From a virus, in the IMG/VR virus record IMGVR_UViG_3300010885_015976, positions 1 to 26,244 of that record: 26,244 nucleotides of DNA. One strand, given 5' to 3'. The notes beneath the pieces are model-generated. The model ran no database searches. It was not told the origin of the DNA and saw only the letters and a list, made by a program, of their open reading frames with translations. The translations under genes were made by a program, and so were the position numbers. How positions within the stretch are numbered: position 1 is the stretch's first letter; each line of letters starts with the position of its first letter. This document shows positions 253 through 20,698 of the stretch, piece after piece.

Positions 253-259
253 ATACATT

Positions 260-697
260 ATGCCATTATATAAAGGTTACAGTACACAAAATTTCATTTA
301 TCAGGATGCCAACACGATCACTGGCATAAAAGAGAATTATTTCGGTCCATATTCAGTTACTGATAAGAATTTGATTATAACTGATCTACTAAATCACTTT
401 TATATTCGAAAAGGCGAAAAGTTAATGAACCCAGAATTTGGGTGCATGATATGGGATAGTCTGTTTGACCCGCTAACAATAACTTTGAAAAATGATATAG
501 TAAATGAAGTTAAAACTATTGCTACTTCAGATCCCAGGATTTCTTTGGTCAGTAAAATTTCAGTGAATGAATCTCCTGACGGAGCTGGATTATTGATAGC
601 ATTAGATATTGCATTAAAAAATAGTAATGAAGTGATAAGTTTGAATCTGGCATTTGACGGCTCGACTGGTGTGATCACAAGTACAATTGCTTATTAA
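260..697 (+). CDS. gp25: Baseplate wedge protein, gp25-like (GPW/gp25 family)
   Basis: This 145-residue protein matches the size and pattern of the gp25 family (T4 gp25 is 132 residues). In contractile tails gp25 sits in the baseplate wedge core with gp6 and is related to sheath-initiating proteins of other contractile systems. The family hallmark is the central block with RKGEKLMNPEFGCMIWD followed by SLFDPL at about residues 47-69, close to the usual 'GER..P.FG....LFEP' pattern. The C-terminal half has the expected beta-rich character. The ATG at 260 is chosen because the frame upstream of it overlaps the clearly coding C-terminus of the previous gene. There is only a weak TGGA ahead of it, so translation may be coupled to the upstream stop. 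The next gene is gp6, its known partner in the wedge. Confidence 0.9.
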   Translation: MPLYKGYSTQNFIYQDANTITGIKENYFGPYSVTDKNLIITDLLNHFYIRKGEKLMNPEFGCMIWDSLFDPLTITLKNDIVNEVKTIATSDPRISLVSKISVNESPDGAGLLIALDIALKNSNEVISLNLAFDGSTGVITSTIAY

Positions 698-766: not shown

Positions 767-3700
767 ATGGCAACATCGTCAAATAATAAGCAAACTAATT
801 TATTTGCAGTTGAGGACTGGAAGAAACTCTATACAGCCTTCACTGATGCAGACTTTCAAGCATATGATTTCGAAACTATTCGTAAGGTCATGGTTGATTA
901 TCTTCGCACATATTATGCTGAGGATTTCAATGACTTTATTGAATCGAGCGAATTCATTGCTCTACTAGATCTCATCGCGTTCCAAGCACAGAGTCTTGCA
1001 TTTCGCACCGATTTAAATGCCAGGGAGAATTTCTTAGAAACAGCAGAGCGTAAAGACAGCGTTCTAAAATTAGTTAAGCAACTAAACTATAATCCCAACC
1101 GTAATAAAGCAGCCAACGGAATTCTTAAAATTAAGAGTCTGATGACAACCGAATCTGTTTTTGATTACAGCAGCAGAAATCTTAGTAAGATCTCTGTTAA
1201 CTGGAATGATACAACTAATCCAGACTGGTTAAATCAATTCAATTTGATAGTCAATGCTTCGTTATCGAGTGGACAAAGAGTTGGTAAGGCATTTGCAAGT
1301 AAAAAAATTAACAATATTAAGACAGAGCAGTATAATATTGCTGTTCCCACAACAGTGCTTGCAGTTTTTCCATTTACTGCAACGATCAGTGACACAGTAA
1401 CTCCCTTTGAAGTTGTTGGTGCAAGCATCACTGATACAGATTCAATAACAGAAAATGATCCGGGACATTTCGGTAATTTTGGTATGATCTATCAAAATGA
1501 CAGTCGTGGAAATGCCAGCCCAAATACAGGTTACTTTCTATTTTTCAAACAAGGGCAGTTAAATGACATCAATCAAGCATTTGCAGAACGTATACCTAAT
1601 CGCATATTAAGTGTTAATTTCGATAATATTAACAACGAAGACGTTTGGTTTTATGATCTGAATAACGGACAAATTGGAGATCAGTGGACGAAGATTCCAA
1701 ATATTGTTGGAAGCAATGCTGTTTATAATAGCATTGCAAGGGGCAATAGAAAGTTATTCAGTGTTAACAGCAGAGGCACAGATCAAATTGATCTTGTGTT
1801 TGGGGATGACACGTTCTCTGAAACCCCTGTAGGTAATTTTAAAACTTATTTTAGAGTTAGCAATGGTTTGACTTACAGAATAAGTCCAGCAGACATGACT
1901 AATGTTAGCATTGTCATTCCATATATCAATAAAAATGGCAAACCTGAAAGACTTACATTGACAGCAAGTCTTCAATATACAGTATCTAATAGTAGTCGTC
2001 GAGATTTAGTTGCTGAAATTAAAAGTAAAGCACCTCAAAATTATTATACACAGGGAAGAATGGTAAACGGTGAAGATTATAATATCTTGCCATACACAAT
2101 GTTCAGTGATATCATTAAGGTAAAGAGTGTTAACAGATATAGCAGCGGTATCAGTCGTTATCTAGATATCAATGATCCAACTGGAAAATATAGTAGCACT
2201 GATCTATTTGCCAGTGACGGTGCATTTTACAAACAGAATAATCGATTGACTACAAATTTCACTTTTAATAGTCGCAACGATGTTATTCGTACGATCACTA
2301 CAACTGTGCAATCAATTCTGAACAGCAAGAGCATGAAGCATTTCTATTATGAAAATTATTCAGAATATCCATTGGTTAATTTATTATGGGCAAGAAAAAC
2401 AGACGATACATCTACCTGTACTGGATTCTTTAACTTCTCTTATAGTGTTGGCACATATCAACCGATCGGTAATGCTGCTGGCGTTCAACAGAATCTACGT
2501 TATTTGTTAACTAACTGTTTAATCAAATTTACAGCACCGTCCGGCTATTATTTTGATAGCAGCAACAGTATAATTCTAGGATCTCCAGCATTACCCAGTG
2601 ATAAAACTGAAATCTGGGCAACGATTCAGAGTCAAATCGGTGACGGTAGAACTCCTATATATCTAGCAGGTCGTACGATTGGTAGTATTACTCTCAGTGA
2701 GAACATCCCCTCAAATGCAATTGTTTCTGCGGTATACGCACCGTTTACAACAAACTTAACTAATACTTTAATAAACACGATCACAACTTACATTTTGAAT
2801 AATGTTGAATTTGCTCTTCGCTACGATACGACGCAGACACCATATGGTGAGCCATGGAAGATTATTCCAATTATCAATGTGGATCAAACCAGTGGATATA
2901 CAGCATCTACTGCTGGAACTAATAGTGATAGCAGTTGGCTATTTTTATTCACTAATGACGGAACAAAGTATACTATAACATATCGTGGTTTAGATTATAT
3001 TTTCAGTAGCACCAACAGCGTTCGTTTCTTAAACATCAATCCTGAACCTGTCTATGATGTTAAGACAAACACAATTGTCACTGACAACATCAAGATTCTA
3101 CAAAGCAACCTAGATAATACTAATACCGTTAAACTTCCTCGTCGGGTTAATCTGTCAGTATATGAAAACGAAATCGAAATCGATGGATATGTTGACAGCA
3201 CAAAAGTAAAGGTTACTTTCCCAACTGCAACACACAGCGATTTGCCTACAGATCCTGCTATTTTTAGTACCATAGTTGGAAGTTTAGATTCAACTTATGT
3301 TTTCTATAAAAAATTTATCGATTATGATAATCTAATTAGATATCAACTACTGGAAGACGGTGTTATTAATTACGTCTATCCTACTAGAATCTCGATTGAG
3401 AATGTTAGAAATAACTTTCCAAATAAAAGACTGTTCTATGCAACTAAAGAAGGGATGTTTTATGAAATCTCTTCCAACGGCGTAGCAAATACATTGGTGG
3501 ATGTCACTCAGGATTATAAATCTTTTATTGGCAGACAGTCTCTGCTATTCCAATATCGTCATAATGCAAGTGATCGTCGACGTATCGATCCTGCAACAAC
3601 TAATTTAATCGATACTTTTATCTTGACTCGTAGTTACGATGAAGCATACAGAAATTATATTAACGATTATACCGGGAAAGTTGCAGAGCCCGCAGCAGTT

Positions 3701-4168
3701 AGCAGTGTTACTTTGGCCAATACATATGGATCTCTATTAGATTTAAAAATGATCAGTGATGAAATGATTCTGAATCCAGGGGTTTATAAGCCATTATTTG
3801 GCAACAAATCAGACAGTGCATTGCAAGCAACAATTCAAATTGTTAAGAATCCTGCCAGCAATATAAGCCCTAACGAACTCAAGAGCAGAGTCATTGAACA
3901 GATCAACAGTTATTTTGCAATCGATAATTGGGATTTTGGGCAAACTTTCTACTTCAGTGAACTAAGTGCTTACTTACATAGCCAACTTGGAAATTACTTA
4001 AGCAGTGTTGTACTAGTGCCCACTTACCCTAACAGTGTATTTGGTGATCTATATGAAATAAGAAGTCAGCCCAATGAGATACTAATTAGTTCAGCAACTG
4101 TTGACAATATCGAAGTTGTTAGCGGTGTTTATATCAGCATGTCTCAGAATACTATGGTTACAATTTAA
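767..4168 (+). CDS. gp6: Baseplate wedge protein, gp6-like, enlarged
   Basis: gp6 forms the ring of wedge dimers at the core of the T4-like baseplate and joins neighbouring wedges. The N-terminal 120 residues carry the signature seen in marine T4-like gp6 proteins: FNDFIESSEFIALLDLIAF, then a segment with FRTDLNARENFLETAER and LNYNPNRN. The C-terminal region has RRRIDPATTNLIDTFILT (around residue 940) and a helix-rich, baseplate-J-like end with a 'FGQTFYFSEL' block. At 1133 residues it is much longer than T4 gp6 (660), with extra beta-rich sequence in the middle (around residues 590-860). The start is supported by AGAGG at 751-755 and by an upstream late promoter. The next gene begins 16 bases after its stop. 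The family call is secure; the role of the additional middle region is unknown. Confidence 0.92.
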   Translation: MATSSNNKQTNLFAVEDWKKLYTAFTDADFQAYDFETIRKVMVDYLRTYYAEDFNDFIESSEFIALLDLIAFQAQSLAFRTDLNARENFLETAERKDSVLKLVKQLNYNPNRNKAANGILKIKSLMTTESVFDYSSRNLSKISVNWNDTTNPDWLNQFNLIVNASLSSGQRVGKAFASKKINNIKTEQYNIAVPTTVLAVFPFTATISDTVTPFEVVGASITDTDSITENDPGHFGNFGMIYQNDSRGNASPNTGYFLFFKQGQLNDINQAFAERIPNRILSVNFDNINNEDVWFYDLNNGQIGDQWTKIPNIVGSNAVYNSIARGNRKLFSVNSRGTDQIDLVFGDDTFSETPVGNFKTYFRVSNGLTYRISPADMTNVSIVIPYINKNGKPERLTLTASLQYTVSNSSRRDLVAEIKSKAPQNYYTQGRMVNGEDYNILPYTMFSDIIKVKSVNRYSSGISRYLDINDPTGKYSSTDLFASDGAFYKQNNRLTTNFTFNSRNDVIRTITTTVQSILNSKSMKHFYYENYSEYPLVNLLWARKTDDTSTCTGFFNFSYSVGTYQPIGNAAGVQQNLRYLLTNCLIKFTAPSGYYFDSSNSIILGSPALPSDKTEIWATIQSQIGDGRTPIYLAGRTIGSITLSENIPSNAIVSAVYAPFTTNLTNTLINTITTYILNNVEFALRYDTTQTPYGEPWKIIPIINVDQTSGYTASTAGTNSDSSWLFLFTNDGTKYTITYRGLDYIFSSTNSVRFLNINPEPVYDVKTNTIVTDNIKILQSNLDNTNTVKLPRRVNLSVYENEIEIDGYVDSTKVKVTFPTATHSDLPTDPAIFSTIVGSLDSTYVFYKKFIDYDNLIRYQLLEDGVINYVYPTRISIENVRNNFPNKRLFYATKEGMFYEISSNGVANTLVDVTQDYKSFIGRQSLLFQYRHNASDRRRIDPATTNLIDTFILTRSYDEAYRNYINDYTGKVAEPAAVSSVTLANTYGSLLDLKMISDEMILNPGVYKPLFGNKSDSALQATIQIVKNPASNISPNELKSRVIEQINSYFAIDNWDFGQTFYFSELSAYLHSQLGNYLSSVVLVPTYPNSVFGDLYEIRSQPNEILISSATVDNIEVVSGVYISMSQNTMVTI

Positions 4169-4184: not shown

Positions 4185-7100
4185 ATGGTTAATAAGTCTC
4201 TAGACAATGTTCCTAAGATAAATCAGAATTCTAAGAACCGTAAGGTAACATCTGATTTCCTGCCAGGTGTATTCAGAACTAATACTAATAAGCGTTTTCT
4301 AAATGCTACTATGGATCAGTTAATCCAAGAACCTAAATTAAACAATGTTTATGGCTACGTTGGAAGACAGGATCTTAGTCCAGCATATCAAACAACAGAC
4401 CCTTATGTTAGAGAGACTGATAGTTATAGTCAATTTTATCAACTTGAACCAGGTCTTGTGATCAATGAACGGATCGTTGGCACCAATCGATTTAAAAAAA
4501 CAAATGCCTTTAACTATGTTGACTTGCTCAATGGTGTTGCACTACAGGGTGGAATCAATACTAATCATAGTAGATTATTCTCTAACGAATATTACAACTA
4601 CGAAGGGTTCATCGATTTCGACAAGTTAATTAATTACAGCAAGTATTACTGGGTTCCCAATGGACCAACTACGCTTGAAGTAAATGGATATGATGTTGAC
4701 AATACAAAGCCTGATGTTGTATTCATCGAAGATTTATCCATTAGCCGCCCTGTAGATCCAGATACCACTGGTAATCTAGTATCTAATAAGCCCATTGGAC
4801 TTGTTGGATATAATATTAGTCAATTCCCAGGCAAGACAAACCCAACTCTTAATTTAGTAAGAGGCAGAACATATAATTTTAATGTTGCTCAACTTGGTCA
4901 TCCATTTTGGATTCAAACTGAACCGGGACTTGGGGAAGGTGTTGGATATCAAGAAAACATCTTTAAGAGAGAAGTATATGGAGTTGATAACAATGGTGCA
5001 GAAGAAGGTACAGTAACTTTTAGAGTACCATTCTCAGACGAGCAGTTTGATGTTGAATCGTTGCCACTATTTGATACTGTTGATCTAGTGACAGATATTC
5101 CATATAACGATATACAAAATGTTATGTATGAAGATTTTATCGCTAACAATACCATTGATGGTATGAGATCATTGACTCAAAAACGCATAGTAATGATCAA
5201 TCCAGACCCTGCTAGTTGGAGAGATGACGTACCTCTAGAACAGCGTTATGGCATCTGGCAGTTAAACAATGTTGATGGCCAACTGCGTTTAGGTTTCATT
5301 AAGGCATGGCCTAATAGCACTAAGATATTTGTTAGAGAAGGCAGACAATATGGTAACGTGAATGTTATTAGAAATAGTCACGGTTCGATATACAAAGAGC
5401 CATTCATTACTTCTAAGCTTGACACACTATACTATCAAGATGGTGTTGATGAAAATGTATACGGTGAGATACGTCTAGTAACAATCGATCCAACACAAGC
5501 AACCATTGATGTCGTACAGCGTGTGCTAGATCAACCTTCTTATACGAGTCCTAATAATGTTGAATTTACCAATGGTTTAAAAGTTATATTCAGAGGCTTC
5601 GTCGAACCCGCAGGATACGCAGATACAGAGTTTGTTGTTGAAGGTGTCGGCACAGGGATTAAATTAGTACCATGGGAAAATTTACTCACCCCTGATCCCA
5701 ACAATCCCAATCAAGGTGATGGATTTGATGCGCAGGGTGAAAATTTTGATTCACTACAGTACGATCTTGCATTAAATTCTCCTTTAAGGAAAGACTATGT
5801 TGTCATAAATCGTTCAAGCATTGACGGTAATGCATGGAGCAGAACTAACCGTTGGTTCCATGAGGACGTAATTCGTTACGCAACAACTTTTAACAATTCA
5901 ACAGCACCTGTTGTATTGGATAACGCATTTAGAGGTATTAGACCAATCATCGAGTTTGATGCCAACTTACAGTTATTCAATCATGGAAATAAATTTGCAG
6001 GTGCTGTGACTGTGATAGATTCCAAAGTCACTGATCTAGGAAACCAAGTTGAAGGTATTAGTCCATATGTACTGATTGATTCCAATGGAAACTATTACAG
6101 CGATGATGTTGCGTTAGAAAACGGAACATACGTTATCTTCACGCAGGAGAGATATCATAATACCAGAAATAAAATCTATGAAGTAAGCAACATCATCCCA
6201 CATGCTGCTAACATCAGAATCAAAACTGTGCTGAGATTTGCTCAGTTGGGATCAACTCAAATGATACTGACTGATACTGATTATCTATATGTTAATATGA
6301 AGGTAACAGGGCAAGGCGTGCCTTCTAATACAATAATTACTGCCATCGATACATTGAATAATATTGTTACTGTGAACAATGAATTAGTAGATGTTCCTGC
6401 GGGTTCGAGTGTTTCTTTTAATACTAATAATAAGCAAGTGCATCTAACACCAGTTCACACTATGCAAGAAGGTGAAACCGTTGTTGCATTAAGTGGTGCA
6501 ACTAAACAGAATTTTGTCTACTGGTGGCATAATGACAGTTGGGTCTATGCTCAACAGAAAAACAGTTTAAATCAAGCGCCGTTATTTGATATCTTTTCAA
6601 TAAGTGGAATTAGTTTCAGTAATACTGAATATTTCACAAGCAGTACATTTGCAGGTAGCAAGTTATTTGGATATAAGGAATCAACTACCGGGCTCAGAGA
6701 TAGTGAACTTGGTTTTCCATTGACTTATAGATCAATCGGAAATATCGGTGACATTGTCTTTGAAAATTTTTACGACACCGAGTCTTTTCATTATAGTTTC
6801 CTTAATAAGGACCAAACTCTTTCGATTTCAAATGGGTTTGCCCATGAGAACAATGTCAATGATCTAAGTTTTAAACTTAGAAATAATTGGATCAAAGTAC
6901 TAGATCAAAGTAAACAATACATTCAGAAGAAATATATCGTGAGTGAGAATCTACGAAATAACTTCTTGCTTAATGTTGATTATAAGATCAATAGTCAAAA
7001 CGAAAAAAATATTTTCGTTTATGTCAACGAAGTCGAATTAAGTTACAAGAAAGACTTCTCATTGATGGTACAAGGAAAGAATTATTATGTATCATTTGCT

Positions 7101-10100
7101 AAAGAATTGATTGTAGGCGATGTTCTAGTAGTTAAGATTTTTGCAAATCCCATATCTCAAGAAAACTTTACTCTGCCAAAGAATCTCACTGAGAACAGTT
7201 TAAATGAAACATTTGATTCATTGACATTGGGGCAAATAAGAAATCATGTGCAGGAAATTGCAGACAATAGTTTATATTTTGTCGGTGAGGCTGCTGGAAG
7301 CAATAATCTACGTGATATTGCATATAAACAAATTCCTGGAAGAATTTTACAGCATAGTGCTGGCGTACACGTCTCGCAGTTGTTTTTTAATAATGAAACT
7401 ACTAACGTCATCCAATCGATCGACTATAGTAGAAAAGCATATCGTAACTTCAAAGACAGATTCTTTAGCCTATTAGGTTCATCTGACTTTCAAAATACTG
7501 GAGATCCACGTGCATGTCTAGATCAGATTTTTGATGAACTTACATCACATGTAACAAGCGATCAAAGTTTCTATTATACTGATATGGTAGCTACCGGAAC
7601 TAAGAATTTCATCGTTAATCGATATACCATTTCAGATACAAACTATAGAAAATTCAACGTAATCAATCCTTTCAGTGTGGCCACTCCTGGATACGAATCG
7701 GTATTGATATATCAAAAGAAATTTAATGATATCACAGATACCAATGGCAATCAACTACTAATCAATAAAGATTATACATTCGATGGGTATGTCGTCAACA
7801 TAATCGCCAATCTAGATATTAACGACACTGTTAGCGTGTTTGAATATGCCAGCACTAAAGGCTGTACTGTTCCTGCTACTCCTACAAAATTAGGACTATA
7901 TCCAAAGTTTACACCTGAGATATTTGTGGACGATACATTCATCGGCCGTAAATTAAATGTCATCCAAGGACATGATGGCAGTAAGACTATTGCATTCAAT
8001 GATTTTAGAGATAACATAATTCTAGAATTTGAAAAAAGAGTTTATAATAATATAACAGTCAACTATATCAATGATAATACTTCTTTCACATCTATCGAGC
8101 CAGGAGCCTTCAGAGTAACTGATTATTCGATGGACGAGTGGACACTGTTACTAAGTCCTACTTTCTTAGAATGGGCTGGAAGTAATAATGTTAACATATT
8201 TGATAATTTATTTCAAAATCAAGCAACATCTAACGATCCTTTTAGTTTTAACTATTCTCAAAGCTTAGATGTTTTATATAATGATGGTGTTCCTGGTTAT
8301 TGGAGAGGTATATACAAATATTTCTTTGATACTGATCGTCCTCATACACATCCTTGGGAAATGTTTGGATTTAGTCAACAACCGGAATGGTGGGAAGCAA
8401 GATATGGTAAAGCACCATATACTTCTGGGAATTTAGTTCTATGGCAAGATGTGCAGATTGGGTTGATTTACCAACACGGGCATGATAGCTATATTGATTC
8501 TCGTTACGCCAGACCAGGAACATTAGATGTTATACCTGTAGATGAACATGGAGATTTATTACCTCCATTGAGTAGTGTAGTTACAACAGTAAAACCCAAT
8601 AATGTTGGTAGTTCATGGAGATTTGGTGATCAGAGTCCGCAGGAAACAGTGTGGCGTCGCAGCAGCGAATATCCTTATGCAATTCAAATTGCATGGGCAT
8701 TGGCTAAACCAGCACAATATTGTACTTGGTCATTGAATCGTCGCGACTATGTGCGTATCCCATTGCTTGATCAGATCATTAACAAACGTACTGGTAAAAG
8801 AGCAGTTAGTCTATCGATATCAGATGACACACAATATATTCCAGGCAGTAATATCTGGATACGTGATCGTCTAGCAGGTTTAAATGTAAACATTCAGACA
8901 AAATTTGTTGAGATATTTGAAAATCTAGGACTTAATCTTGTTTACAAGATGAGTGGTTTCACTGATAAGAGTTACATCGAAGTCATTGCAGAACAAGCAA
9001 GCCCTAACAGCACTAACACAGGTATCCTGGTTCCTAAAGAAAATTATGATCTTGTAGTTTCTAAAAGTGCTCCGGTAGGTGCTGCTACTTATAGTGCAGT
9101 TATAATAAAGAAAGCCGGCGGCATCTTTTCTATATTTGGTACTGATTTCAATCGTCCTTATTTTATCATCACTCCTCGTAGGATGAATGGAAATTTCTAT
9201 AATATTACTGTAAGCCAACAAACAGCCATGGTTAGAATGGATGATGAAGATGGCATTCAGATAATTCCATATGGGCAACAGTTCACAACAACACAACAGG
9301 TTGTTGATTTCTTAATAAGTTATGGTAGTTATTTAAAGAGCACTGGATTCTTATTTGGAGATGTAGCAAGTGGAGAATCTGAGATTGAATTTCATAATTC
9401 TACTATCGATTGGGCAAATTCTGCTAAACAATTTCTCTATTGGTTAGAACAAGGGTGGGATTCATCTATCGTTCTAAGTTTAACTCCTGCAGGAACTCAA
9501 TTAAGTTTTGACACTGGGTTTGGCGTCGTCGACGACTTAACTAATAGTTATAGTGGAGTTAGATTAACTAATTCCGACGACACTGTTTTACAGAACAAAG
9601 AATACACTACTTTTAGAAATGGTACAAACTTTAATTTAATCCTTAAGGATCCTTCTAAAGGAATTCACTTATTAGATCTTGTAGTTGTGGCATATGAACA
9701 TACATTAGTTTTTGATAACACGACAGTGTTTAATGATATCATATACAGTCCAAGCCTTGGCAATCGTCAATATAGAATGAAGATCAATGGTTTCAAGACT
9801 AGGGATTGGGATGGTAGTTTATATGCTCCAGGTTTCTTAGTAAACTTCAATGACGTTGAGTTATGGCAACCTGTAACTGATTACTATAAAGGCGACATTG
9901 TAGAATACAAGAACAAATACTATACAGCCAAAGTTTTCATACCTGGACAGAATAAGTTCATTGAAAATAATTGGATGCCAGTGAATGGCAATCTATTAAA
10001 CAAAAAACTAATACCAAATATGGCATTTAATGCTCAGCAGTTTGAAAATTTCTACGACGTAGATAAATTTGATGTTAATTCAGACGCTGATACATTAGCA

Positions 10101-13100
10101 AGAAATGCCACTGGTTTTGTTCCAAGAAATTATCTAGATGATATCGGATTAAACAACATCAGTCAACACAAATTCTATCTTGGAATGATTCGAGAAAAAG
10201 GAACTAAGGCAGCAATCAATGCCTTCCTTAGAGCAAAACTTCCATACATCGATAACAATGTAACCGTCGACGAGCAGTTTGCAATAAGATTAGGATCATA
10301 TGGCGGTTCCAACGATATCAATGATATTGAACTAAGTTTGGAAAATGCAAATCCATTGAATGGTGCGTATGTTGTTGAACTGATCAATCAAAATGATACA
10401 AGAAGCAATATGTGGAATTCATATAGACCAAAAGATCTATTAATGAAACCAGCATCATACGATAACAACATTTTCTACTCAACTGAATCATATCCGATGC
10501 AAATTGGCACAGGCGGTCCTGTATATCCATCTGACGTGACTTCATCTGTCTATGATATTCAGAAGATCTACAATCTAAGTGGTCCGTCAACTACAGATTC
10601 AACCGCTGGCTACGGCGAAGGCAGTAGAATCTGGGTAGCAAACGATACCGAAGGCACTTGGAATGTCTATAGACTAAGTGGTTTCGAGAATATCAAAATT
10701 CTAAATGCTGTTGCAATTAATACAACTTCTGAGATAGAATTCATGACTGATATCCCTCATGGATTAACTTTCAATGACAATATTCTTATCAAGAACGGTG
10801 CAACCATTGGTAAGATAGAAATGAATCTCAGTGGATTCTATAGAGTTAATAAAGTTCTTACTGCAAATACATTTAGAACTCCTATATACGACGGAGTAAA
10901 AATAGCATCGGGACCAATGCATGGTTCTCTATTGAAAATTAAATCAGTGAAGTACAATGACAGATCTTCTTTTGCGATCGATACTCCTCCAGGTGGATGG
11001 AGAACGTCTGACAGAGTTTGGATCAATGGGCTCAGTGGTAACTGGGAAGTATTAAATCGTTATGACAACTATATCATTTCTCAATCACTGACTCCTGTGT
11101 TCTCGGGCGAATCAGATAATTTTGGTAATCAGATGGATATCAAATCCACAGAAGATATCATGGTTGTAGGAGCACCTGGAAAAGATTCAGGATACGTTTA
11201 TGTTTATAATAAGGATTTAAATGCTTCTTGGGCTGTTGCTAAAGGTATCAGTCCAGCAAATTCTAATACATCGCAATTTGGTTATAGCGTAAAATACAAT
11301 GATCTAGATATTGCCATCGTTGGTGCGCCAGGCAGTAACAGTGGTGCAGGACTTGCTTATATTATCAATGCGTCGAACTACAAGATCGGTGTTAATCAAA
11401 TTTTAAATCCCACTGGTATGAGTGCCGGTGATCAATTTGGCTATGCAGTTGCGTCCAGTGTTGATGGCAACTGGATTGCAATCGGCGCTCCTGCTAATAA
11501 TAAGGTATTCATCTATAGATATACTGAAATTACTAGTCCGGTAACATATTCTTATCAAACAGAGACTGCAACCGAGTTTGAATTGCCTCAGGGTATATTA
11601 GGTACAGGACTTACTGTAGATGATATCAAGGTCTATATCAATGATGATATGAAAATTCCAACCACTGATTATTACATCAGTGGTAACAATGTGGAACTAA
11701 ACTTTACTCCTAATTACAGCGACATATTGACTATAACTTATGAAAGTTATTATCGGTATGTCACTGAGTTTTCGAATACTGAAAACAGTGGCAATTTTGG
11801 AAGCAGCTTAAGTTTCAGTAAGGATGGTTCTCAGTTGGCCATTGGCGCACCAACTTTAACTGTAGTCGATGCTAGTGGAAATTCTTACTCTAACATGGGT
11901 CAAGTTTATATCTACGAAAGAACAATCGAATCATTCATCATTCCCACATATACTGAAACATTCTTAACATCTGCACAAGCAGCAACTTTGTATTCTGTAA
12001 CATTAGATAATACTGCTGTATTTCCACTGGTATATCTAGACGGAGTATTAGATACAGAAAACACAGTACTCGATAATACTGTTACATTTATGTCAGGGGA
12101 TTTACTTCGTTTACTATCATATGGATCCCAAGTTACGGTTGAATCTAATACATTTAGATTACTAGAAACCAAAGTAATGTCAACAGGACAGAATAATTTA
12201 AATTTTGGTGCTAAGGTGCAAATATGTCCAACTACATGCAGTTTATATGTAGGCGCTCCTGGATTTGCCACTGTTAATCCTGTCACAACAGCAAGTATTA
12301 ACAGCGGTGCATTAATTCGTTATGTTAATGAAGCAAGATTTTATGGTTCTATTACAGGTAGTCAAAGTAATCCTACTACCACTGGTGGTTATAGTACTAT
12401 CATCAACGGAGTAAAGATTACATTTGATGGATCTAGTATCGATAATAGGACTATATTAGATTGGTCTCCTTATCACGACTATATCACTGATAATTGGATC
12501 AGACATAATACTATAATCTATAAGCCAACGCAGAATTTTACTAGTAGTGCAACATTCGATAGCACATATCTAACACCGTATCAGGTAACTGTCGACGAGA
12601 TTGTTTCTGACATCAATGCTGCTAGGATTCCAGGTATCACTGCCTCTAAGTCACCTAGAAATAGATTAGTAATAACTTCATCGATCGAATTAGCACATAA
12701 TAAGATCGTAATTAATACAACTAGTTTGGGCACGTTCTTAACTGATGTTGGATTAACTGTTTTCAAATATTATCAAACTATTAACTCCATAGTTGATCAA
12801 TCGACTGCAAATTTTGGAATTCAATTTGCATTGAATAATGCAGGTGATCGCTTAGTGATTGGCGCAACAACTGCTGATAATATTAAATTTGTATCCATAG
12901 ATAAAGGAACAACAACATTTGACGCTAAATCTACTAGAACATTTAGCGCATATTATAGAAGCGGTGCTGCTTATCTATACGAGTATCAAGCAGATGCAAA
13001 TGAGAATACAATACATCATGGAAACTTTGCCTATGCTCAGACATTCAACACTTCTTCACTCGTTTCCAATCAGTATTTTGGAACAGGTGTCTTATTAACA

Positions 13101-16100
13101 AATAATTGGGCAATAATTTCTTCTCTCGGCGACGGTACCAGAGCCGGAACTGTTAATACATTTTACAATAAATCAGGCACTAAAAATTGGGCAGTTCTTC
13201 GTCAGCAGTTACCAGATGTAGATTCTAGAAAGATAACACGAGCATATATCTACAATGACAACACAAAAACATTGATTGCAGATCTTCCTGTCATTGATCC
13301 AGAACACGGTATACCTGTTCCTGCTGCCGCTGAACAGATCAGATATATTTTAAATTATGATCCAGCCATCTATACAAACAGTCCTAACAAATACTCTTTT
13401 GCTGTGGATGTTAGAAGCAGTTGGTCTAAAGAACACGTTGGGCAGTTGTGGTGGGATACTAATCAAATAAAGTATACACTATGGAACCAAGGATCTCTAT
13501 TAGATAGATTTAATAATTGGGGTCTTTCGATCCCAAATAGTTTTGCAAGTGTTTACGAATGGATCGAAAGTGATATGACGCCAAGTCAGTGGAACATTGA
13601 ATATCCATTGACACCCAGTGTTTACACCGCAAGTGAAATCTATTCCACCCGAGTTGTCATTGACCCTGATACACTAGTACCTTCTAACAAATACTATTTC
13701 TGGATCATTAATAATGATTCTAATAGCAGTAAGATTAGAAGAGATACTGCACTTATGTTGCAGGAATTAATTGCAAATCCTAGAAAGAATGACAATCAAC
13801 CATTTGTCTCTGTGATTGGAACAAACGCATTGGCATTGTTCAACTGTAATGATCTAATAGACAAGGACACTCGACTGCATTTAACTCTTCAAAATAATCG
13901 ATACGTAAATCCAGTGCATAATGAATGGACAATGTTTGATGATGGTTCAGACCTAGGTGTTGCACGTGAATTCTTGGATCGTATGAATGATAGTTTAGCA
14001 GGAATTGATGCTCGCGGTAAAATGGTTCCTGATCCTGATCTCAGTATTAAAGAACGTTATGGGTTAGAAGTAAGACCAAGACAAACAACATTTGCTGATA
14101 ATTTTAATGCCAGAGGAATTTGGATCAACAATGTCAATGCTGTGTTTACTCAATATCCGATAGCACTGCTAAGAGACATGGTATCACTTGAGGAATATGA
14201 TGTTCCGCCTATCGTTGATGGGGTGGAAATTAAATTCTCAGTTGAAAACGAAATCGAATTAACATATATTAATGCTGGTTTTTATAATACCGGTGATAAG
14301 ATTCTAGTATTAAATGATTCAACTGTAAATGGATGGTCTATTAGACAACTACAATCGTCAAATTCTGTATCCGAACTTTGGAAAATCATACGGGTAAAAA
14401 CTTATGATCTTAGAAATTACTGGTCATATGCTGATTGGTATCAGAGTCCTCTGATAGCATCTGTTGCAATTGACAAGATAGTCGATTATGATTATGAAAT
14501 TCAAAGTTCAAATCCACAAGTTGGAGAATTAATTAAAGTTAAGGATGGTGGTAACGGCAATTGGAAGTTGGTGTTAGCACAGGAAAGTTCTTTCCAGTTG
14601 GTTGGTCAACAGAATGCAACCATTCAACTTAACAGAAATCTCTATGATAACAATGTTGCAGGATTTGGTGTAGACAGCCAGAGTTTTGAAATAATTGGTT
14701 TCGCTAAAGATAATGCATTGGAATTCAGAAAGATATTTGATATCGTAACAGACAAGTTATTAACAAATGAATTGCGAGACGATTTTAAAATCATTCTAAG
14801 ATCAATGCTAGATGACATTACTAATCAGTTTAAACAGAACGATTGGTTGATGAAAACTAGTTTGGTCAATGTTAACAATGAAGTTAGATCATTGAATCAA
14901 ATTCCAGTCTACGTCAAAGAAACGACTGATACTGTGTTAAATTTCTTCAATGAGGTTAAACCATATCATACAAAAGTCAAAGAATTCATCAGTTCTTATA
15001 AACAACTTGATACTGCTCAACTTGATGCAGTAGATTTCGATCTTCCACCATATTATAATCTAAATAATAAAAGATACAGAGAACCGCAGTTAGGTAACGG
15101 CATCGATGTTGTCGATGATATCAATGTATTTGATACTCCGCTTTATAATATTTGGTACAACAATCACAAATACCCAGTACAGTACATTGATATTGCTGAT
15201 GGCGGTCATGGATATAGACAAATAGATACCACTGTTGTTATTACTGGTGATGGAAAGGGTGCTACTGCACAAGCATTCATTAAAAATGGTTCTATATATG
15301 CAATCGAATTAACTAATAGTGGAAAAGATTACACTTATGCTACTGTTAAGATATTAGGTATCGGTACCGGTGCAACAGCATTTGCTAAACTTGGTCACAG
15401 CGTGGCAAGAAATATCAAAACTACAATCCGTTTCGATAGATTCACTTATGGCACTTATACTAAAGAATGGGCTCCAAACACTTCTTATACATTGACTGAT
15501 TTAATCAATTACAATGGTAACGTATATAGAATTGCAACTGATGCTAATCTACAAAATGTACAAAGCACAGGTATAACAACTGGCGATACTTTTAATTTCA
15601 CTAACTTGATCGAACTTAAAGTTAAAGTTTGGGAACCAGAAAAACCATTTACTAAAGATACTGTCATTGTTTATAAAAATATTCCTTATGTTGCACTCAC
15701 TGATTTTGTCAGTGGTAGATATTTTGAATATAATGATAATATAACAGTAACTAATAGTTTAGATTGGGAACCTGCTACTTACTATATGGCAGATACTGTA
15801 ATCAGTTACAATGGAGTTGCATATCGTGTGCTACATGATTTTACAACACCCAATTCATTCACGTATGATAACTTATTATCTGTTTATGATATTGCTATGT
15901 ATCCAGGCGGGTACTTTGACGATGCTGCCAGCCGAGTATGGAGTTACTATAATCCAGCATCTGGAATGCCAGGCAAGGACTTAACGCAAGTAATGACTGG
16001 CATGGAGTATCCTGGCGTAATTGTTAAAAGTCCAACATTTAATCAATTGATGGGATATGGGTTTGAACTGTTTGAAAGAATCGCATATGATCAGAGAACA

Positions 16101-19025
16101 TATGATGAAAACGGTCTACTAGATGTCTATGGTGATCAACAAGTCGATTCTAATATTGCTAGTTATTTCAATGATGCACAATTGGGATTACGTCCGGAAG
16201 ATATGATTTTAGATGGATCTAACTTCGTCGATACATACAGCAGTTATGCTCCTGAAGAATTCATTCCTGGAATGATGTTAGACAGCGTTGACATTAGAGT
16301 TAAGACTTTGAGTGACTATACTGTTTCTAAATCACCAGATGTTGTGGTTGTATCTAAGTATGCTGATAGTGTTACAAAAGTTTATAGTTTTGATCCAACA
16401 GTGACAGATACGAAACTGCCAACTGGCGGAATTGAAAATATCACAGTGTTGAATGATATCGCAGGTGTACAAACAGAAGGTATTGATTACACAGTGAATT
16501 GGGCACTTCGATACATCGAATTTATCAATGCTCCTCCGATACCCAGCAGTGTATACATTATAATAACAGGAGCCAGTGGTCAAAAAGTAATGGCTGATTC
16601 CGAGTTCATCGGTGATGGACAACAGACCGAGTTTGAAATATTTGACGCAGTATTAGAGAATGTTCAACAAGTCTATGTCAAGATAAACGGTAATAAAGTG
16701 ACCAATTGGAAACTTGCAGAAGCAGGTTATGGCACCACGGATCCTGCAACATTGGGTTGGGATGGTACTCCTGTAGACGGCACATATTGGGATCAATCAT
16801 ATGTTCCCGTTAGTGCAATCTGGCAACCGCTAACTGATTACTTCATTGACGATTTTGTAACCTATAATGCTGCAACATATAGAGTTGTTAGAGCATTCAG
16901 AAGTGGTGCAGAATTCAGTAACGAAAACATGATGTCATCTCAACGAGTGATTGTGAGATTTGATGGTCCGCCTGCGGCCGGTGACCTAATTCAGATCCAC
17001 TTATTTGACTTGTCTTTTTCTACTAAGGCTTACAGTGAGATAACAACCCAAGAAGTTATAGTTGGTTCAGGATATCAGTCGGGCACAGCAGGTTTTGAGA
17101 TTTCATTGAACGAGAAAGTGCAATATTCAAAACCATGGGAATCTAAGGTTAGAGTTAGCGTAAATGGGATTGATCTAGAACCTACCAATCAAGCATACTA
17201 TGCTGGTAACGGAAAAAATAAAACTTTCTCATTGCCAAACACAAGAAATGTCGATGTTAATTCAGTTACCAATTCTGATATCGTTGTGCTGATCGACGGC
17301 GTAGTTAAACTAAATCCAAGCGATTACACTGTTTATAGAAATGGCATTGATATTCCAAGTATTGTGTTCAATTCTAGCCCTGCTGATGGATCATCTATTA
17401 TAATAAGCAATAAGAGCACCTCAGATTATTTCATATTCAATGAAAGATCGATCATCATTAAACCTTCTTATCGATTGTTCCCCAACGATAAGATTGAAGT
17501 AAATGTTTACAGCAACCATGATCAGTATGATACCCGTTGTCAGGTCTTTAGTTCGTTGAACAACAACACAACTTCGATTAAGGTTGATAATTATTCCGGA
17601 TGGGATAGCATCGCGTATGATTCTATCAACTATGTCGATGAAACATTGCTCACTGGCAGTATAGGAACCGTTCCATATGCAATACATCACAGTGATCTTA
17701 AGAGCGGTTCGATCACAACTTCGACTGTTGATTATGGTTTCGCAAGCAATGTAGTAGGGTTTGACAACGCTGCGTGGGATGTAAATGAAGTAACATATGC
17801 ATCGAGTTATATACTGAACAGTCCATTGAATGGAACTCCACAGGTATCAGTCAATGGTGTGTTATTATCTATCTTGACTGACTATGTCATTGCGAACACT
17901 TCGACAATTGTTTTCAATTCTCAGGTATTGTCAACTGATGTTATTACAGTTTATGATCTCTATGACACACTGATCACAATTGTATCTTCTTATCCTACTA
18001 CTACTGCAATGGACATTTCAGCATTAAAAGTTGTAGTTGATGGAATTCAACTAAACAGATATACTGACTATACATTATCAAATGCCTATAGTCTTTCGTT
18101 TTTGAACACATTGAAAATCAGTCCATCTGCAACAATTCAAGTTTATTCATTGACTCCTGTTGTTGATCCCGCTGCTAATTTTGGTTGGGACGATGAATTT
18201 ACAATCAGCATTCAGCCTGCAGGCACAATTGTATCTCTTGGATATGATATCGTTGGATGGGACACTACCATTTGGGATAACGAACGCACAAATACTATTG
18301 CAGCCCCAACGTATGTACTAAGTAGACCAGTGAATAACATTAATAATCTGAGAGTTACATTCAATGGAGCATGGCTTCAGCCATTCTATGAATATGTTCT
18401 AATAACTCCCACAGTGCTAAGAATTGATCCAGCACTGGGTGTAACTTCTGCAGACGTAGTTGTTGTGACACATATCAATGAAGATGCAAGACAACAAAAC
18501 ATCGAATTCAGAATCTTCAAAGGTATCACTGAAACATACGATTACTTGGGTATCAGTGATAGAACTACTACATTATTAACTCAAGATTTACTACAAAATG
18601 ATGAGTGGATTAATGTTAAAGATACCGCAGTGTTTAGTTTTCCCGATCCCGAACAGTCTAAACCAGGTGTTGTTTTCATCAATGGGGAAAGAATTACTTT
18701 CTATGTATTAGATATTGTAAACAATCGTCTAGGTCAGTTACGTCGTGGAACCAACGGAACGGGTGCTCCACTAGTACATGCTGCTGGACTAAGAGTATAT
18801 GATGGTGGCAATCTAGTAGAAATTCCAAGCGCAAGAGACAAGTATGTTATTGCTGATGTTCCTGTAACTATAATAGGAAAGATGGGAGATCAGCGTACTA
18901 TCGACATTGGAAAACTTTATCGTCAAGGTAAGGTTTGGGAAAACTTAGGTGTTAGCACTCCATCAGATGGAACGGGTATATTAAATTCTACTACAGTACA
19001 AGCAACCTTCTTAAAGGCATTATAA
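4185..19025 (+). CDS. Giant 4946-residue modular baseplate/tail structural protein
   Basis: One open frame of 14.8 kb follows gp6, where T4 has genes 7 and 8; marine T4-like phages often carry a very large structural protein here (sometimes labelled VrlC-like). No interruption is present. Modules seen, by approximate residue: conserved marine-phage blocks at 1-1450, including RSSIDGNAWSRTNRWFH (about 545) and HPWEMFGFSQQPEWW (about 1390); a 'GQGVPSNTIITAI' unit (about 710); a CBM5/12-like unit (1894-1935); a 'PHGL' unit (about 2190); seven FG-GAP repeats (2312-2995); a GQLWWDT block (3086); GGxGY repeats (3672-3745); four more CBM-like units (3762-3910, 4213-4250); beta-sandwich repeats (about 4100-4770); and a C-terminal domain with PGVVFINGERITFY and LRRGTNGT (4785-4880). 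No signal peptide or membrane segment is evident. AGG at 4170-4172 precedes the ATG. Most likely it builds the outer baseplate and host-contact surface; the exact role is inferred. Confidence 0.85.
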   Translation: MVNKSLDNVPKINQNSKNRKVTSDFLPGVFRTNTNKRFLNATMDQLIQEPKLNNVYGYVGRQDLSPAYQTTDPYVRETDSYSQFYQLEPGLVINERIVGTNRFKKTNAFNYVDLLNGVALQGGINTNHSRLFSNEYYNYEGFIDFDKLINYSKYYWVPNGPTTLEVNGYDVDNTKPDVVFIEDLSISRPVDPDTTGNLVSNKPIGLVGYNISQFPGKTNPTLNLVRGRTYNFNVAQLGHPFWIQTEPGLGEGVGYQENIFKREVYGVDNNGAEEGTVTFRVPFSDEQFDVESLPLFDTVDLVTDIPYNDIQNVMYEDFIANNTIDGMRSLTQKRIVMINPDPASWRDDVPLEQRYGIWQLNNVDGQLRLGFIKAWPNSTKIFVREGRQYGNVNVIRNSHGSIYKEPFITSKLDTLYYQDGVDENVYGEIRLVTIDPTQATIDVVQRVLDQPSYTSPNNVEFTNGLKVIFRGFVEPAGYADTEFVVEGVGTGIKLVPWENLLTPDPNNPNQGDGFDAQGENFDSLQYDLALNSPLRKDYVVINRSSIDGNAWSRTNRWFHEDVIRYATTFNNSTAPVVLDNAFRGIRPIIEFDANLQLFNHGNKFAGAVTVIDSKVTDLGNQVEGISPYVLIDSNGNYYSDDVALENGTYVIFTQERYHNTRNKIYEVSNIIPHAANIRIKTVLRFAQLGSTQMILTDTDYLYVNMKVTGQGVPSNTIITAIDTLNNIVTVNNELVDVPAGSSVSFNTNNKQVHLTPVHTMQEGETVVALSGATKQNFVYWWHNDSWVYAQQKNSLNQAPLFDIFSISGISFSNTEYFTSSTFAGSKLFGYKESTTGLRDSELGFPLTYRSIGNIGDIVFENFYDTESFHYSFLNKDQTLSISNGFAHENNVNDLSFKLRNNWIKVLDQSKQYIQKKYIVSENLRNNFLLNVDYKINSQNEKNIFVYVNEVELSYKKDFSLMVQGKNYYVSFAKELIVGDVLVVKIFANPISQENFTLPKNLTENSLNETFDSLTLGQIRNHVQEIADNSLYFVGEAAGSNNLRDIAYKQIPGRILQHSAGVHVSQLFFNNETTNVIQSIDYSRKAYRNFKDRFFSLLGSSDFQNTGDPRACLDQIFDELTSHVTSDQSFYYTDMVATGTKNFIVNRYTISDTNYRKFNVINPFSVATPGYESVLIYQKKFNDITDTNGNQLLINKDYTFDGYVVNIIANLDINDTVSVFEYASTKGCTVPATPTKLGLYPKFTPEIFVDDTFIGRKLNVIQGHDGSKTIAFNDFRDNIILEFEKRVYNNITVNYINDNTSFTSIEPGAFRVTDYSMDEWTLLLSPTFLEWAGSNNVNIFDNLFQNQATSNDPFSFNYSQSLDVLYNDGVPGYWRGIYKYFFDTDRPHTHPWEMFGFSQQPEWWEARYGKAPYTSGNLVLWQDVQIGLIYQHGHDSYIDSRYARPGTLDVIPVDEHGDLLPPLSSVVTTVKPNNVGSSWRFGDQSPQETVWRRSSEYPYAIQIAWALAKPAQYCTWSLNRRDYVRIPLLDQIINKRTGKRAVSLSISDDTQYIPGSNIWIRDRLAGLNVNIQTKFVEIFENLGLNLVYKMSGFTDKSYIEVIAEQASPNSTNTGILVPKENYDLVVSKSAPVGAATYSAVIIKKAGGIFSIFGTDFNRPYFIITPRRMNGNFYNITVSQQTAMVRMDDEDGIQIIPYGQQFTTTQQVVDFLISYGSYLKSTGFLFGDVASGESEIEFHNSTIDWANSAKQFLYWLEQGWDSSIVLSLTPAGTQLSFDTGFGVVDDLTNSYSGVRLTNSDDTVLQNKEYTTFRNGTNFNLILKDPSKGIHLLDLVVVAYEHTLVFDNTTVFNDIIYSPSLGNRQYRMKINGFKTRDWDGSLYAPGFLVNFNDVELWQPVTDYYKGDIVEYKNKYYTAKVFIPGQNKFIENNWMPVNGNLLNKKLIPNMAFNAQQFENFYDVDKFDVNSDADTLARNATGFVPRNYLDDIGLNNISQHKFYLGMIREKGTKAAINAFLRAKLPYIDNNVTVDEQFAIRLGSYGGSNDINDIELSLENANPLNGAYVVELINQNDTRSNMWNSYRPKDLLMKPASYDNNIFYSTESYPMQIGTGGPVYPSDVTSSVYDIQKIYNLSGPSTTDSTAGYGEGSRIWVANDTEGTWNVYRLSGFENIKILNAVAINTTSEIEFMTDIPHGLTFNDNILIKNGATIGKIEMNLSGFYRVNKVLTANTFRTPIYDGVKIASGPMHGSLLKIKSVKYNDRSSFAIDTPPGGWRTSDRVWINGLSGNWEVLNRYDNYIISQSLTPVFSGESDNFGNQMDIKSTEDIMVVGAPGKDSGYVYVYNKDLNASWAVAKGISPANSNTSQFGYSVKYNDLDIAIVGAPGSNSGAGLAYIINASNYKIGVNQILNPTGMSAGDQFGYAVASSVDGNWIAIGAPANNKVFIYRYTEITSPVTYSYQTETATEFELPQGILGTGLTVDDIKVYINDDMKIPTTDYYISGNNVELNFTPNYSDILTITYESYYRYVTEFSNTENSGNFGSSLSFSKDGSQLAIGAPTLTVVDASGNSYSNMGQVYIYERTIESFIIPTYTETFLTSAQAATLYSVTLDNTAVFPLVYLDGVLDTENTVLDNTVTFMSGDLLRLLSYGSQVTVESNTFRLLETKVMSTGQNNLNFGAKVQICPTTCSLYVGAPGFATVNPVTTASINSGALIRYVNEARFYGSITGSQSNPTTTGGYSTIINGVKITFDGSSIDNRTILDWSPYHDYITDNWIRHNTIIYKPTQNFTSSATFDSTYLTPYQVTVDEIVSDINAARIPGITASKSPRNRLVITSSIELAHNKIVINTTSLGTFLTDVGLTVFKYYQTINSIVDQSTANFGIQFALNNAGDRLVIGATTADNIKFVSIDKGTTTFDAKSTRTFSAYYRSGAAYLYEYQADANENTIHHGNFAYAQTFNTSSLVSNQYFGTGVLLTNNWAIISSLGDGTRAGTVNTFYNKSGTKNWAVLRQQLPDVDSRKITRAYIYNDNTKTLIADLPVIDPEHGIPVPAAAEQIRYILNYDPAIYTNSPNKYSFAVDVRSSWSKEHVGQLWWDTNQIKYTLWNQGSLLDRFNNWGLSIPNSFASVYEWIESDMTPSQWNIEYPLTPSVYTASEIYSTRVVIDPDTLVPSNKYYFWIINNDSNSSKIRRDTALMLQELIANPRKNDNQPFVSVIGTNALALFNCNDLIDKDTRLHLTLQNNRYVNPVHNEWTMFDDGSDLGVAREFLDRMNDSLAGIDARGKMVPDPDLSIKERYGLEVRPRQTTFADNFNARGIWINNVNAVFTQYPIALLRDMVSLEEYDVPPIVDGVEIKFSVENEIELTYINAGFYNTGDKILVLNDSTVNGWSIRQLQSSNSVSELWKIIRVKTYDLRNYWSYADWYQSPLIASVAIDKIVDYDYEIQSSNPQVGELIKVKDGGNGNWKLVLAQESSFQLVGQQNATIQLNRNLYDNNVAGFGVDSQSFEIIGFAKDNALEFRKIFDIVTDKLLTNELRDDFKIILRSMLDDITNQFKQNDWLMKTSLVNVNNEVRSLNQIPVYVKETTDTVLNFFNEVKPYHTKVKEFISSYKQLDTAQLDAVDFDLPPYYNLNNKRYREPQLGNGIDVVDDINVFDTPLYNIWYNNHKYPVQYIDIADGGHGYRQIDTTVVITGDGKGATAQAFIKNGSIYAIELTNSGKDYTYATVKILGIGTGATAFAKLGHSVARNIKTTIRFDRFTYGTYTKEWAPNTSYTLTDLINYNGNVYRIATDANLQNVQSTGITTGDTFNFTNLIELKVKVWEPEKPFTKDTVIVYKNIPYVALTDFVSGRYFEYNDNITVTNSLDWEPATYYMADTVISYNGVAYRVLHDFTTPNSFTYDNLLSVYDIAMYPGGYFDDAASRVWSYYNPASGMPGKDLTQVMTGMEYPGVIVKSPTFNQLMGYGFELFERIAYDQRTYDENGLLDVYGDQQVDSNIASYFNDAQLGLRPEDMILDGSNFVDTYSSYAPEEFIPGMMLDSVDIRVKTLSDYTVSKSPDVVVVSKYADSVTKVYSFDPTVTDTKLPTGGIENITVLNDIAGVQTEGIDYTVNWALRYIEFINAPPIPSSVYIIITGASGQKVMADSEFIGDGQQTEFEIFDAVLENVQQVYVKINGNKVTNWKLAEAGYGTTDPATLGWDGTPVDGTYWDQSYVPVSAIWQPLTDYFIDDFVTYNAATYRVVRAFRSGAEFSNENMMSSQRVIVRFDGPPAAGDLIQIHLFDLSFSTKAYSEITTQEVIVGSGYQSGTAGFEISLNEKVQYSKPWESKVRVSVNGIDLEPTNQAYYAGNGKNKTFSLPNTRNVDVNSVTNSDIVVLIDGVVKLNPSDYTVYRNGIDIPSIVFNSSPADGSSIIISNKSTSDYFIFNERSIIIKPSYRLFPNDKIEVNVYSNHDQYDTRCQVFSSLNNNTTSIKVDNYSGWDSIAYDSINYVDETLLTGSIGTVPYAIHHSDLKSGSITTSTVDYGFASNVVGFDNAAWDVNEVTYASSYILNSPLNGTPQVSVNGVLLSILTDYVIANTSTIVFNSQVLSTDVITVYDLYDTLITIVSSYPTTTAMDISALKVVVDGIQLNRYTDYTLSNAYSLSFLNTLKISPSATIQVYSLTPVVDPAANFGWDDEFTISIQPAGTIVSLGYDIVGWDTTIWDNERTNTIAAPTYVLSRPVNNINNLRVTFNGAWLQPFYEYVLITPTVLRIDPALGVTSADVVVVTHINEDARQQNIEFRIFKGITETYDYLGISDRTTTLLTQDLLQNDEWINVKDTAVFSFPDPEQSKPGVVFINGERITFYVLDIVNNRLGQLRRGTNGTGAPLVHAAGLRVYDGGNLVEIPSARDKYVIADVPVTIIGKMGDQRTIDIGKLYRQGKVWENLGVSTPSDGTGILNSTTVQATFLKAL
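9858..9989 (+). other. CBM5/12-like module 1 inside the giant protein
   Basis: Residues about 1892-1935 read WQPVTDYYKGDIVEYKNKYY, followed by a short segment and a closing Trp (NNWMPV). The order W-x-P, Y-x-x-GD-x-V-x-Y, Y-x-A and final W is the usual pattern of small chitin/cellulose-binding (carbohydrate-binding family 5/12) modules. Sugar binding is inferred; the fold also serves as a structural unit in phage tails. Confidence 0.6.
11118..13170 (+). other. Seven-repeat FG-GAP (integrin-type) beta-propeller domain with inserts
   Basis: Seven FG-GAP-type repeats start at residues of about 2312, 2364, 2417, 2537, 2673, 2876 and 2964. Clear examples are QFGYSVKYNDLDIAIVGAPG and DQFGYAVASS followed by NWIAIGAP. 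Repeats 5 to 7 are more divergent (VGAPGF, VIGATT, IISSLG). Seven is the number needed to close an integrin-type propeller. Long inserts follow repeats 3, 4 and 5; the first resembles the beta-sandwich repeats found later in the same protein (KVYINDDMKI, then ELNFTP). Confidence 0.75.
15198..15400 (+). repeat. GGxGY glycine-rich beta repeats in the giant protein
   Basis: Residues about 3672-3740 contain two related units: DGGHGYRQIDTTVVITGDGK with GATAQAFIKNG, then NSGKDYTYATVKILGIG with TGATAFAKLG. The alternation of GY, a V/I-rich strand and G-x-GA is a repeat I recall from fiber and baseplate proteins of marine phages. A structural spacer role is inferred. Confidence 0.6.
15462..15900 (+). 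other. Three consecutive CBM5/12-like modules (2-4) in the giant protein
   Basis: Three units begin at Trp residues 3762 (EWAPNTSYTLTDLINYNGNV), 3816 (WEPEKPFTKDTVIVYKN) and 3861 (DWEPATYYMADTVISYNGVA). Each has W-x-P, an aromatic, D-x-(V/L)-x-x-Y and a Tyr-containing strand. They follow directly on the GGxGY repeats. Spacing is 54 and 45 residues, consistent with tandem small domains. Confidence 0.6.
16815..16935 (+). other. CBM5/12-like module 5 in the giant protein
   Basis: A fifth unit begins at Trp 4213 (IWQPLTDYFIDDFVTYNAAT, then YRVVRAF). It is embedded among the beta-sandwich repeats, separated from modules 2-4 by about 350 residues. Confidence 0.55.
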
Positions 19026-20651: not shown

Positions 20652-20669
20652 ACGATTATGAGCAATCTA

Positions 20670-20677
20670 TATAAATA
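20670..20677 (+). promoter_or_regulatory. T4-type late promoter octamer for the second fiber gene
   Basis: Exact TATAAATA in the 47-base gap, 21 bases before the ATG at 20699, the same spacing as for gp6. GAGAG at 20686-20690 is a suitable ribosome-binding site. Confidence 0.72.
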
Positions 20678-20698
20678 CATTAAACGAGAGAATCAGTA

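Follow-up and report, generated by a model that had tools for sequence, protein, structure and literature searches.

A seven-bladed integrin-type propeller as a removable module of a giant phage baseplate-locus protein, with a possible role in host adhesion

What is an integrin-type propeller, in animal cells the classic head for adhesion, doing inside a structural protein of a bacteriophage? The question is raised by a 26.2-kb fragment of an uncultured jumbo-type myophage (IMG/VR record IMGVR_UViG_3300010885_015976, positions 1 to 26,244, referred to below as the window), which opens with a gp25-like gene followed by a gp6-like gene and then by one reading frame of 4946 residues. An initial annotation, made from the sequence alone, had placed a complete seven-blade FG-GAP propeller at 11118-13170 of this giant frame. 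The two features concerned are as follows.

4185..19025, + strand: giant baseplate-locus protein of 4946 residues, host of the propeller (single open reading frame; phrog_10938, virion structural protein)
11043..13193, + strand: seven-bladed FG-GAP_2 propeller, residues 2287-3003, bounded by the conserved W2287 and W3002, with its limits taken from empty-site alleles

The FG motifs of the seven repeats begin at residues 2313, 2365, 2418, 2538, 2674, 2877 and 2965 (nt 11121, 11277, 11436, 11796, 12204, 12813 and 13077), and after each comes GAP, intact or decayed, from blade 1 to blade 7 VGAP, VGAP, IGAP, IGAP, VGAP, IGAT and SSLG. The Pfam profile FG-GAP_2 (PF14312) matched the window segment at E=3.8e-13 (49.8 bits, curated cut-off 23) in four separate stretches, which cover only four of the seven repeats, and PF01839 gave no match in the window. 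When the propellers of the window and 58 relatives were aligned, PF14312 matched all 59 sequences singly (E<=0.01; best 1.1e-31), all seven FG positions were conserved with the FG glycine kept in 55-59 of the 59, and blade 7 carried GAP in most relatives. The impression that the landmarks are clear in repeats 1-4 and decay in 5-7 is therefore true of the window, while the relatives show blades 5-7 to be genuine. Each blade was also subjected to a leave-one-out test, in which a hidden Markov model (HMM) was trained on the remaining six blades as found in the relatives, the window being excluded, and the window blade was scored against 2000 shuffles of itself. Every blade (7/7) outscored all 2000 shuffles, the weakest being blade 6 (13.0 against 12.4 bits for the best shuffle). 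The seven repeats are genuine, and the predicted location was correct, although the true span is slightly wider, at about residues 2287-3003 (nt 11043-13193), with long loop insertions in blades 3-5. Searches with tblastn of the propeller, from the window or from the relative L022, against 50,697 phage records gave no match because BLAST is too weak for FG-GAP repeats; an IMG/VR single-protein scan with the propeller as query likewise returned nothing, whereas the flanking cores as queries did find relatives.

The AlphaFold2 (AF2) model of the domain is a propeller, with a mean predicted local distance difference test score (pLDDT) of 87.9 and a predicted template modelling score (pTM) of 0.88. 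A Foldseek comparison with the PDB placed integrin alpha headpieces in the top sixteen positions (best E=4.5e-12, probability 1.0, template modelling score 0.64 normalised on the integrin), and a structure-free comparison of the alignment profile with PDB sequences returned integrin alpha-4 first at 4.2e-13. Since the structure route and the sequence-only profile route agree on an integrin-type propeller, the predicted domain is confirmed as a closed seven-bladed integrin-type (FG-GAP_2) beta-propeller, closure being judged from the fold match. Two of the checks proposed with the initial annotation, profile matching and structure prediction, thus came out in its favour. A third did not, as no DxDxDG calcium loop, of the type carried by the C-terminal blades of integrin propellers, occurs in the window, and any such match is seen in only 4 of the 59 sequences. 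The fold is that of an integrin, yet one defining integrin feature is missing. The nearest relatives by fold and by profile, the integrin alpha headpieces (alpha-V, alpha-5, alpha-IIb and alpha-4), share the seven FG-GAP blades; in contrast to them, the phage propeller is devoid of DxDxDG loops, carries long beta insertions in blades 3-5 and is embedded in a baseplate protein with no beta-subunit partner. Its membership of the FG-GAP_2 family is clear from the matches above, and it differs from the other proteins of the family in its phage structural context. The insertions and one conserved loop were located in the window as follows.

11532..11744, + strand: blade 3 insertion after strand 3, a small beta domain (sequence and DSSP of the model; loop placement presumed from FG-GAP topology)
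11922..12149, + strand: blade 4 insertion after strand 3 (sequence and DSSP of the model)
12333..12758, + strand: blade 5 insertion of ~140 residues, with a Flagellin_IN-like conserved stretch, INxAxIPGVTA...GxLxIxS
12861..12962, + strand: loop between strands 2 and 3 of blade 6, DKGTTTFDAKST, with near-invariant polar residues D2906, T2910, D2913 and T2917

The Flagellin_IN profile PF07196 scored below its cut-off on the blade 5 insertion of the window (E=0.043) and matched three of the 59 members (best 2e-4). In the blade 6 loop, D2906 is kept in 58, T2910 in 56, D2913 in all and T2917 in 54 of the 59 sequences, and this polar loop is among the lowest-confidence stretches of the single-chain model. 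A near-invariant loop with low confidence when modelled alone resembles a conserved contact, and it brings in the main rival to a role in host contact, in which the propeller would be an internal docking platform. Another protein of the baseplate or of a fibre, or an adjacent wedge, would be bound by it, and it would make no contact with the host. Propellers commonly serve as protein-protein platforms, and this one has been kept across a broad clade. We consider docking possible rather than probable, as the slot in which the propeller sits offers several points that oppose it.

This variable slot lies between residues ~2066 and 3005 of the giant protein and is enclosed by conserved cores with at least 594 relatives in IMG/VR.

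7869..10382, + strand: conserved core before the slot, residues 1229-2066 (alignments A1 and A6)
10800..11042, + strand: pre-domain, residues 2206-2286 (HMM positions 1-89)
13200..15170, + strand: conserved core after the slot, residues 3006-3662 (alignment A2; phrog_10938)

The propeller was present in about 115 of 132 distinct read-through slots (114 over the propeller-coverage threshold, and L182 by reading its sequence), a figure that is not an estimate of prevalence since the sample is biased toward the window. In three relatives, L066, L121 and L123, a clean empty site was found, with the pre-domain joined to the downstream core in a slot of 247-248 residues devoid of a propeller; one such junction reads ...DRVWVNNDTNTGSTGWAVYTYNGATWDRTRQQSAKVD..., where the window has ...DRVWINGLSGNWEVLNRY, the propeller and then KNWAVLRQQLPDVD... 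The three lie on separate contigs and differ by ~25-30% in the core, which argues that the empty site is no assembly slip. As the flanks are the same, assembly can evidently do without the propeller, contrary to what would be expected of an internal docking platform. The same point is made by six cultured relatives with homologous cores, in whose giant protein no FG-GAP match was found. Their slot measures 232 residues in 121Q, 286 in Vibrio phage 2.275 (V2275), 338 in PA5oct and 531 in SCTP-2, and holds ~1550 residues of other repeats in Phosso and Atu_ph07. The SCTP-2 slot, LamG-like by appearance, gave no Pfam match and the assignment was dropped. Thus the named members of the phrog_10938 family (121Q gp582, PA5oct gp355, Atu_ph07 gp180, Phosso XYS97451 and SCTP-2 gp140) share both conserved cores with the window protein and differ from it in having no FG-GAP match in the giant protein.

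Elsewhere the slot has been refilled. A YHYH domain (PF14240, E=4.3e-29) stands at the propeller junction in L055 (L055:5937-8306), and four propeller-less relatives carry a GDSL/SGNH hydrolase (best E 8.2e-15) in a neighbouring slot just upstream.

L067:3858-5477, L058:12419-14668, L061:11251-13512 and L080:12425-14926: GDSL/SGNH hydrolase domains of one propeller-less clade

HMM positions 1-89 of the pre-domain match L066, L121, L123, L055, L058, L061, L067 and L080 although the propeller is gone there. In the baseplate protein the two ends of the module come together at a single point, and the propeller can thus be removed or replaced with the cores undisturbed; it is a self-contained module, present, absent or replaced without disturbance of its flanks. 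What was observed in one protein is thereby extended to a clade, in which over a hundred environmental phages have the propeller in the same slot and a few others lack it cleanly. As a separate observation, the slots of L028, L034, L037 and L038 are ~1490-1730 residues long and match parts of the propeller more than once, so that each may contain two propellers.

The hydrolase in the neighbouring slot of propeller-less relatives suggested a second rival, in which the propeller would belong to an enzyme or to a unit that modifies the receptor, for instance as a polysaccharide-directed lectin or lyase doing the work of the GDSL hydrolase. This we regard as highly improbable. Pfam gave no catalytic family match in the propeller of the window or of the 59 sequences, and no FG-GAP propeller is known to act as an enzyme. 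Moreover, the association of GDSL with propeller loss is confined to one clade and is therefore one event; for this reason the GDSL domain as a functional substitute for the propeller was not counted as support.

A tree of the first core, obtained by a quick search with Shimodaira-Hasegawa-like approximate likelihood ratio test (SH-aLRT) support and no bootstrap, separated the propeller phages from the cultured relatives at a fully supported split, with the empty and replaced alleles nested inside the propeller-bearing side (SH-aLRT 96-100 for the enclosing groups). This topology fits an early acquisition of the propeller, which would have been followed by at least two losses or replacements. 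The propeller diverges faster than its flanks, with a mean identity of 35% against 52% for the first core and 46% for the second, and in 277 of 278 pairs its identity was below that of the first core, though these pairs are non-independent and drawn from a sample biased toward the window. Faster divergence argues against docking. Together with the loss of the propeller in several lineages, it is what a third rival would predict, namely a largely neutral space-filling or protective domain of a giant protein with no specific ligand. That the seven FG glycines and the polar loop have been kept in nearly all 59 diverged sequences, and that the slot has been refilled by other recognisable domains, makes such a domain improbable.

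The same protein contains further candidate binding modules, resembling carbohydrate-binding modules (CBMs) of family 5/12.

15468..16883, + strand: CBM5/12-like stretches of the chitin-binding type, located in the C-terminal half (PF02839, E=1.8e-13, four stretches; positions by pattern)
9864-9926, + strand: further CBM5/12-like stretch (position by pattern)

Chitin-binding domains were also the top, though weak, Foldseek matches of the AF2 model of the first core (pLDDT 77, pTM 0.68), which had no confident PDB match. A precedent for binding modules at this place is the wedge protein Gp119 of Bacillus phage Vp4, which carries two CBMs and decorates host cells, while its CBM-less homologue Gp177 does not (PMC11406892). 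Gp119 resembles the window protein in that binding modules have been added to a wedge protein whose close homologues lack them, and differs in that its modules have CBM folds, with no propeller, and in that cell binding was shown by experiment (PMC11406892).

We favour an adhesin because of the faster divergence, the loss and replacement of the propeller, the CBM5/12-like stretches in the same protein and the Vp4 precedent. By analogy, a receptor- or glycan-binding role, as first suggested from the sequence, is plausible, and the chances that the propeller acts as an exchangeable adhesion module for the host surface appear to us about even. The propeller would jut from the baseplate wedge, in an outward position that is assumed, and its variable loops might touch a polysaccharide or protein of the host envelope and so help to settle the baseplate on the cell. 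Tail fibres would supply the primary specificity, with the propeller as a secondary adhesin. It would work like an integrin alpha chain only in binding through the propeller face, the integrin-type calcium loops not being used, and the conserved DxxxTxxDxxxT loop of blade 6 could be the constant site at which a partner protein or a ligand is bound. Several points weigh against this adhesin. Fast divergence and loss fit a dispensable or weakly constrained domain equally well, and the divergence itself was measured on non-independent pairs in a biased sample; the strongest polar conservation, residing in one loop, is more in keeping with an unchanging internal partner than with a receptor that varies; and that the propeller faces outward from the baseplate is an assumption. 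Taken whole, an inserted propeller module with the role of secondary adhesin is the explanation towards which we lean, by a narrow balance. If it is true, the list of adhesion folds open to phages becomes longer, and the wedge of the baseplate, in addition to the fibres, would be a site of host contact. For function, a ready-made control exists in the empty-site alleles found in nature. A more specific proposal, which we put forward tentatively and hold to be rather unlikely in full, is that the jumbo-type phages of a large, uncultured environmental clade carry a receptor-binding propeller head that is built into the baseplate, separate from the fibres and exchangeable, with the blade 6 loop as fixed working site and the rest tuned to the host.

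FG-GAP repeats were proposed for host attachment in the prasinovirus MntV1 in 2024, where it was suggested that this might be the first confirmed virus with FG-GAP (PMC11467894). The likeness to the window lies in virus-encoded FG-GAP repeats with a proposed role in attachment; the differences are that the MntV1 repeats are in separate genes of an algal virus, and phage cases were not considered by its authors (PMC11467894). Other kinds of beta-propeller are known in phage nozzles and in endosialidase (PMC10607447), and no paper in the open literature searched, outside which lie most subscription-journal papers, joined FG-GAP with phage baseplates. The family profile also detected FG-GAP_2 in separate genes of the cultured jumbo phages Phosso and Atu_ph07, and FG-GAP-like phage proteins were found by fold in the BFVD library. 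In Sinorhizobium phage Phosso the neighbouring hypothetical proteins XYS97266 and XYS97267, 3162 and 3692 residues long (L118:3339-23979; Phosso 48338-68978), match at E=2.4e-53 and 1.5e-172 over at least 6 and at least 19 stretches, the second also having Laminin_G domains, and they are probably several propellers in tandem. Atu_ph07 gp320, of 393 residues and annotated as a streptococcal hemagglutinin, is an FG-GAP_2 protein (5.3e-18) encoded beside a tail sheath gene (L119:4019-5200). These proteins share FG-GAP_2 repeats with the window and differ in that their genes lie elsewhere, outside the giant baseplate protein. The suggestion that FG-GAP is nearly absent from viruses (PMC11467894) thus fails for phages, in which, as far as we have searched the open literature, FG-GAP is present yet undescribed. 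The fold, and the theme of binding modules added to wedge proteins, were known; their combination, with natural empty-site alleles, is new.

The initial annotation had spoken of a T4-like baseplate, and the locus bears this out in part.

110..697, + strand: gp25-like baseplate wedge gene, 195 residues (phrog_261, E=8.9e-12; phrog_43, E=3.1e-8, baseplate wedge subunit)
767..4168, + strand: gp6-like baseplate wedge gene, 1133 residues (phrog_10646, E=3.5e-280; phrog_219, E=1e-15, baseplate wedge subunit)

The order gp25-gp6-giant agrees with gp25-gp6-gp7, the order in T4. The jumbo-phage family phrog_10938, which comprises giant virion proteins, matches the 4946-residue protein over both cores (E=9.1e-287, five stretches), and its homologues adjoin gp6- and gp25-like genes in Phosso, PA5oct and 121Q, so that the term is correct as to location. 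The record of the PA5oct homologue notes its detection by electrospray ionization tandem mass spectrometry (ESI-MS/MS). Descent of the giant protein from T4 gp7 was considered, and homology was detected neither by profile nor by fold: profiles of both cores (A1 and A2) against PDB sequences returned no gp7, and at E<=1 a chitin-binding domain alone, and the AF2 model of the first core had no Foldseek match in the PDB below 0.001. Gene order is accordingly the one argument for the equation with gp7. A relationship between the KGT...EEWAF end of the core and phage tail protein I (P2 gpI) was also considered and found no Pfam support.

A short tandem repeat, TATTAAAATC x2.9, runs at 692-720 from the end of the gp25-like gene into the gap before the gp6-like gene, and no tRNA genes were found in the 26.2-kb window. 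Beyond the giant gene, two adjacent tail proteins at 19743-21715 have N-terminal matches in common to phrog_15511/phrog_14394 (residues ~1-87), the first with a C1q-like C-terminus (E=1.8e-4), and are likely to be fibres or spikes that share one anchor. The downstream open reading frames (23016-26242) gave no Pfam match above cut-off; by eye, those at 23016-24634 and 24988-25932 appear glycosyltransferase-like, and the start of a frame at 25889-26242 is cysteine-rich and possibly radical SAM. A radical SAM gene lies near the giant gene in Phosso and Atu_ph07 too.

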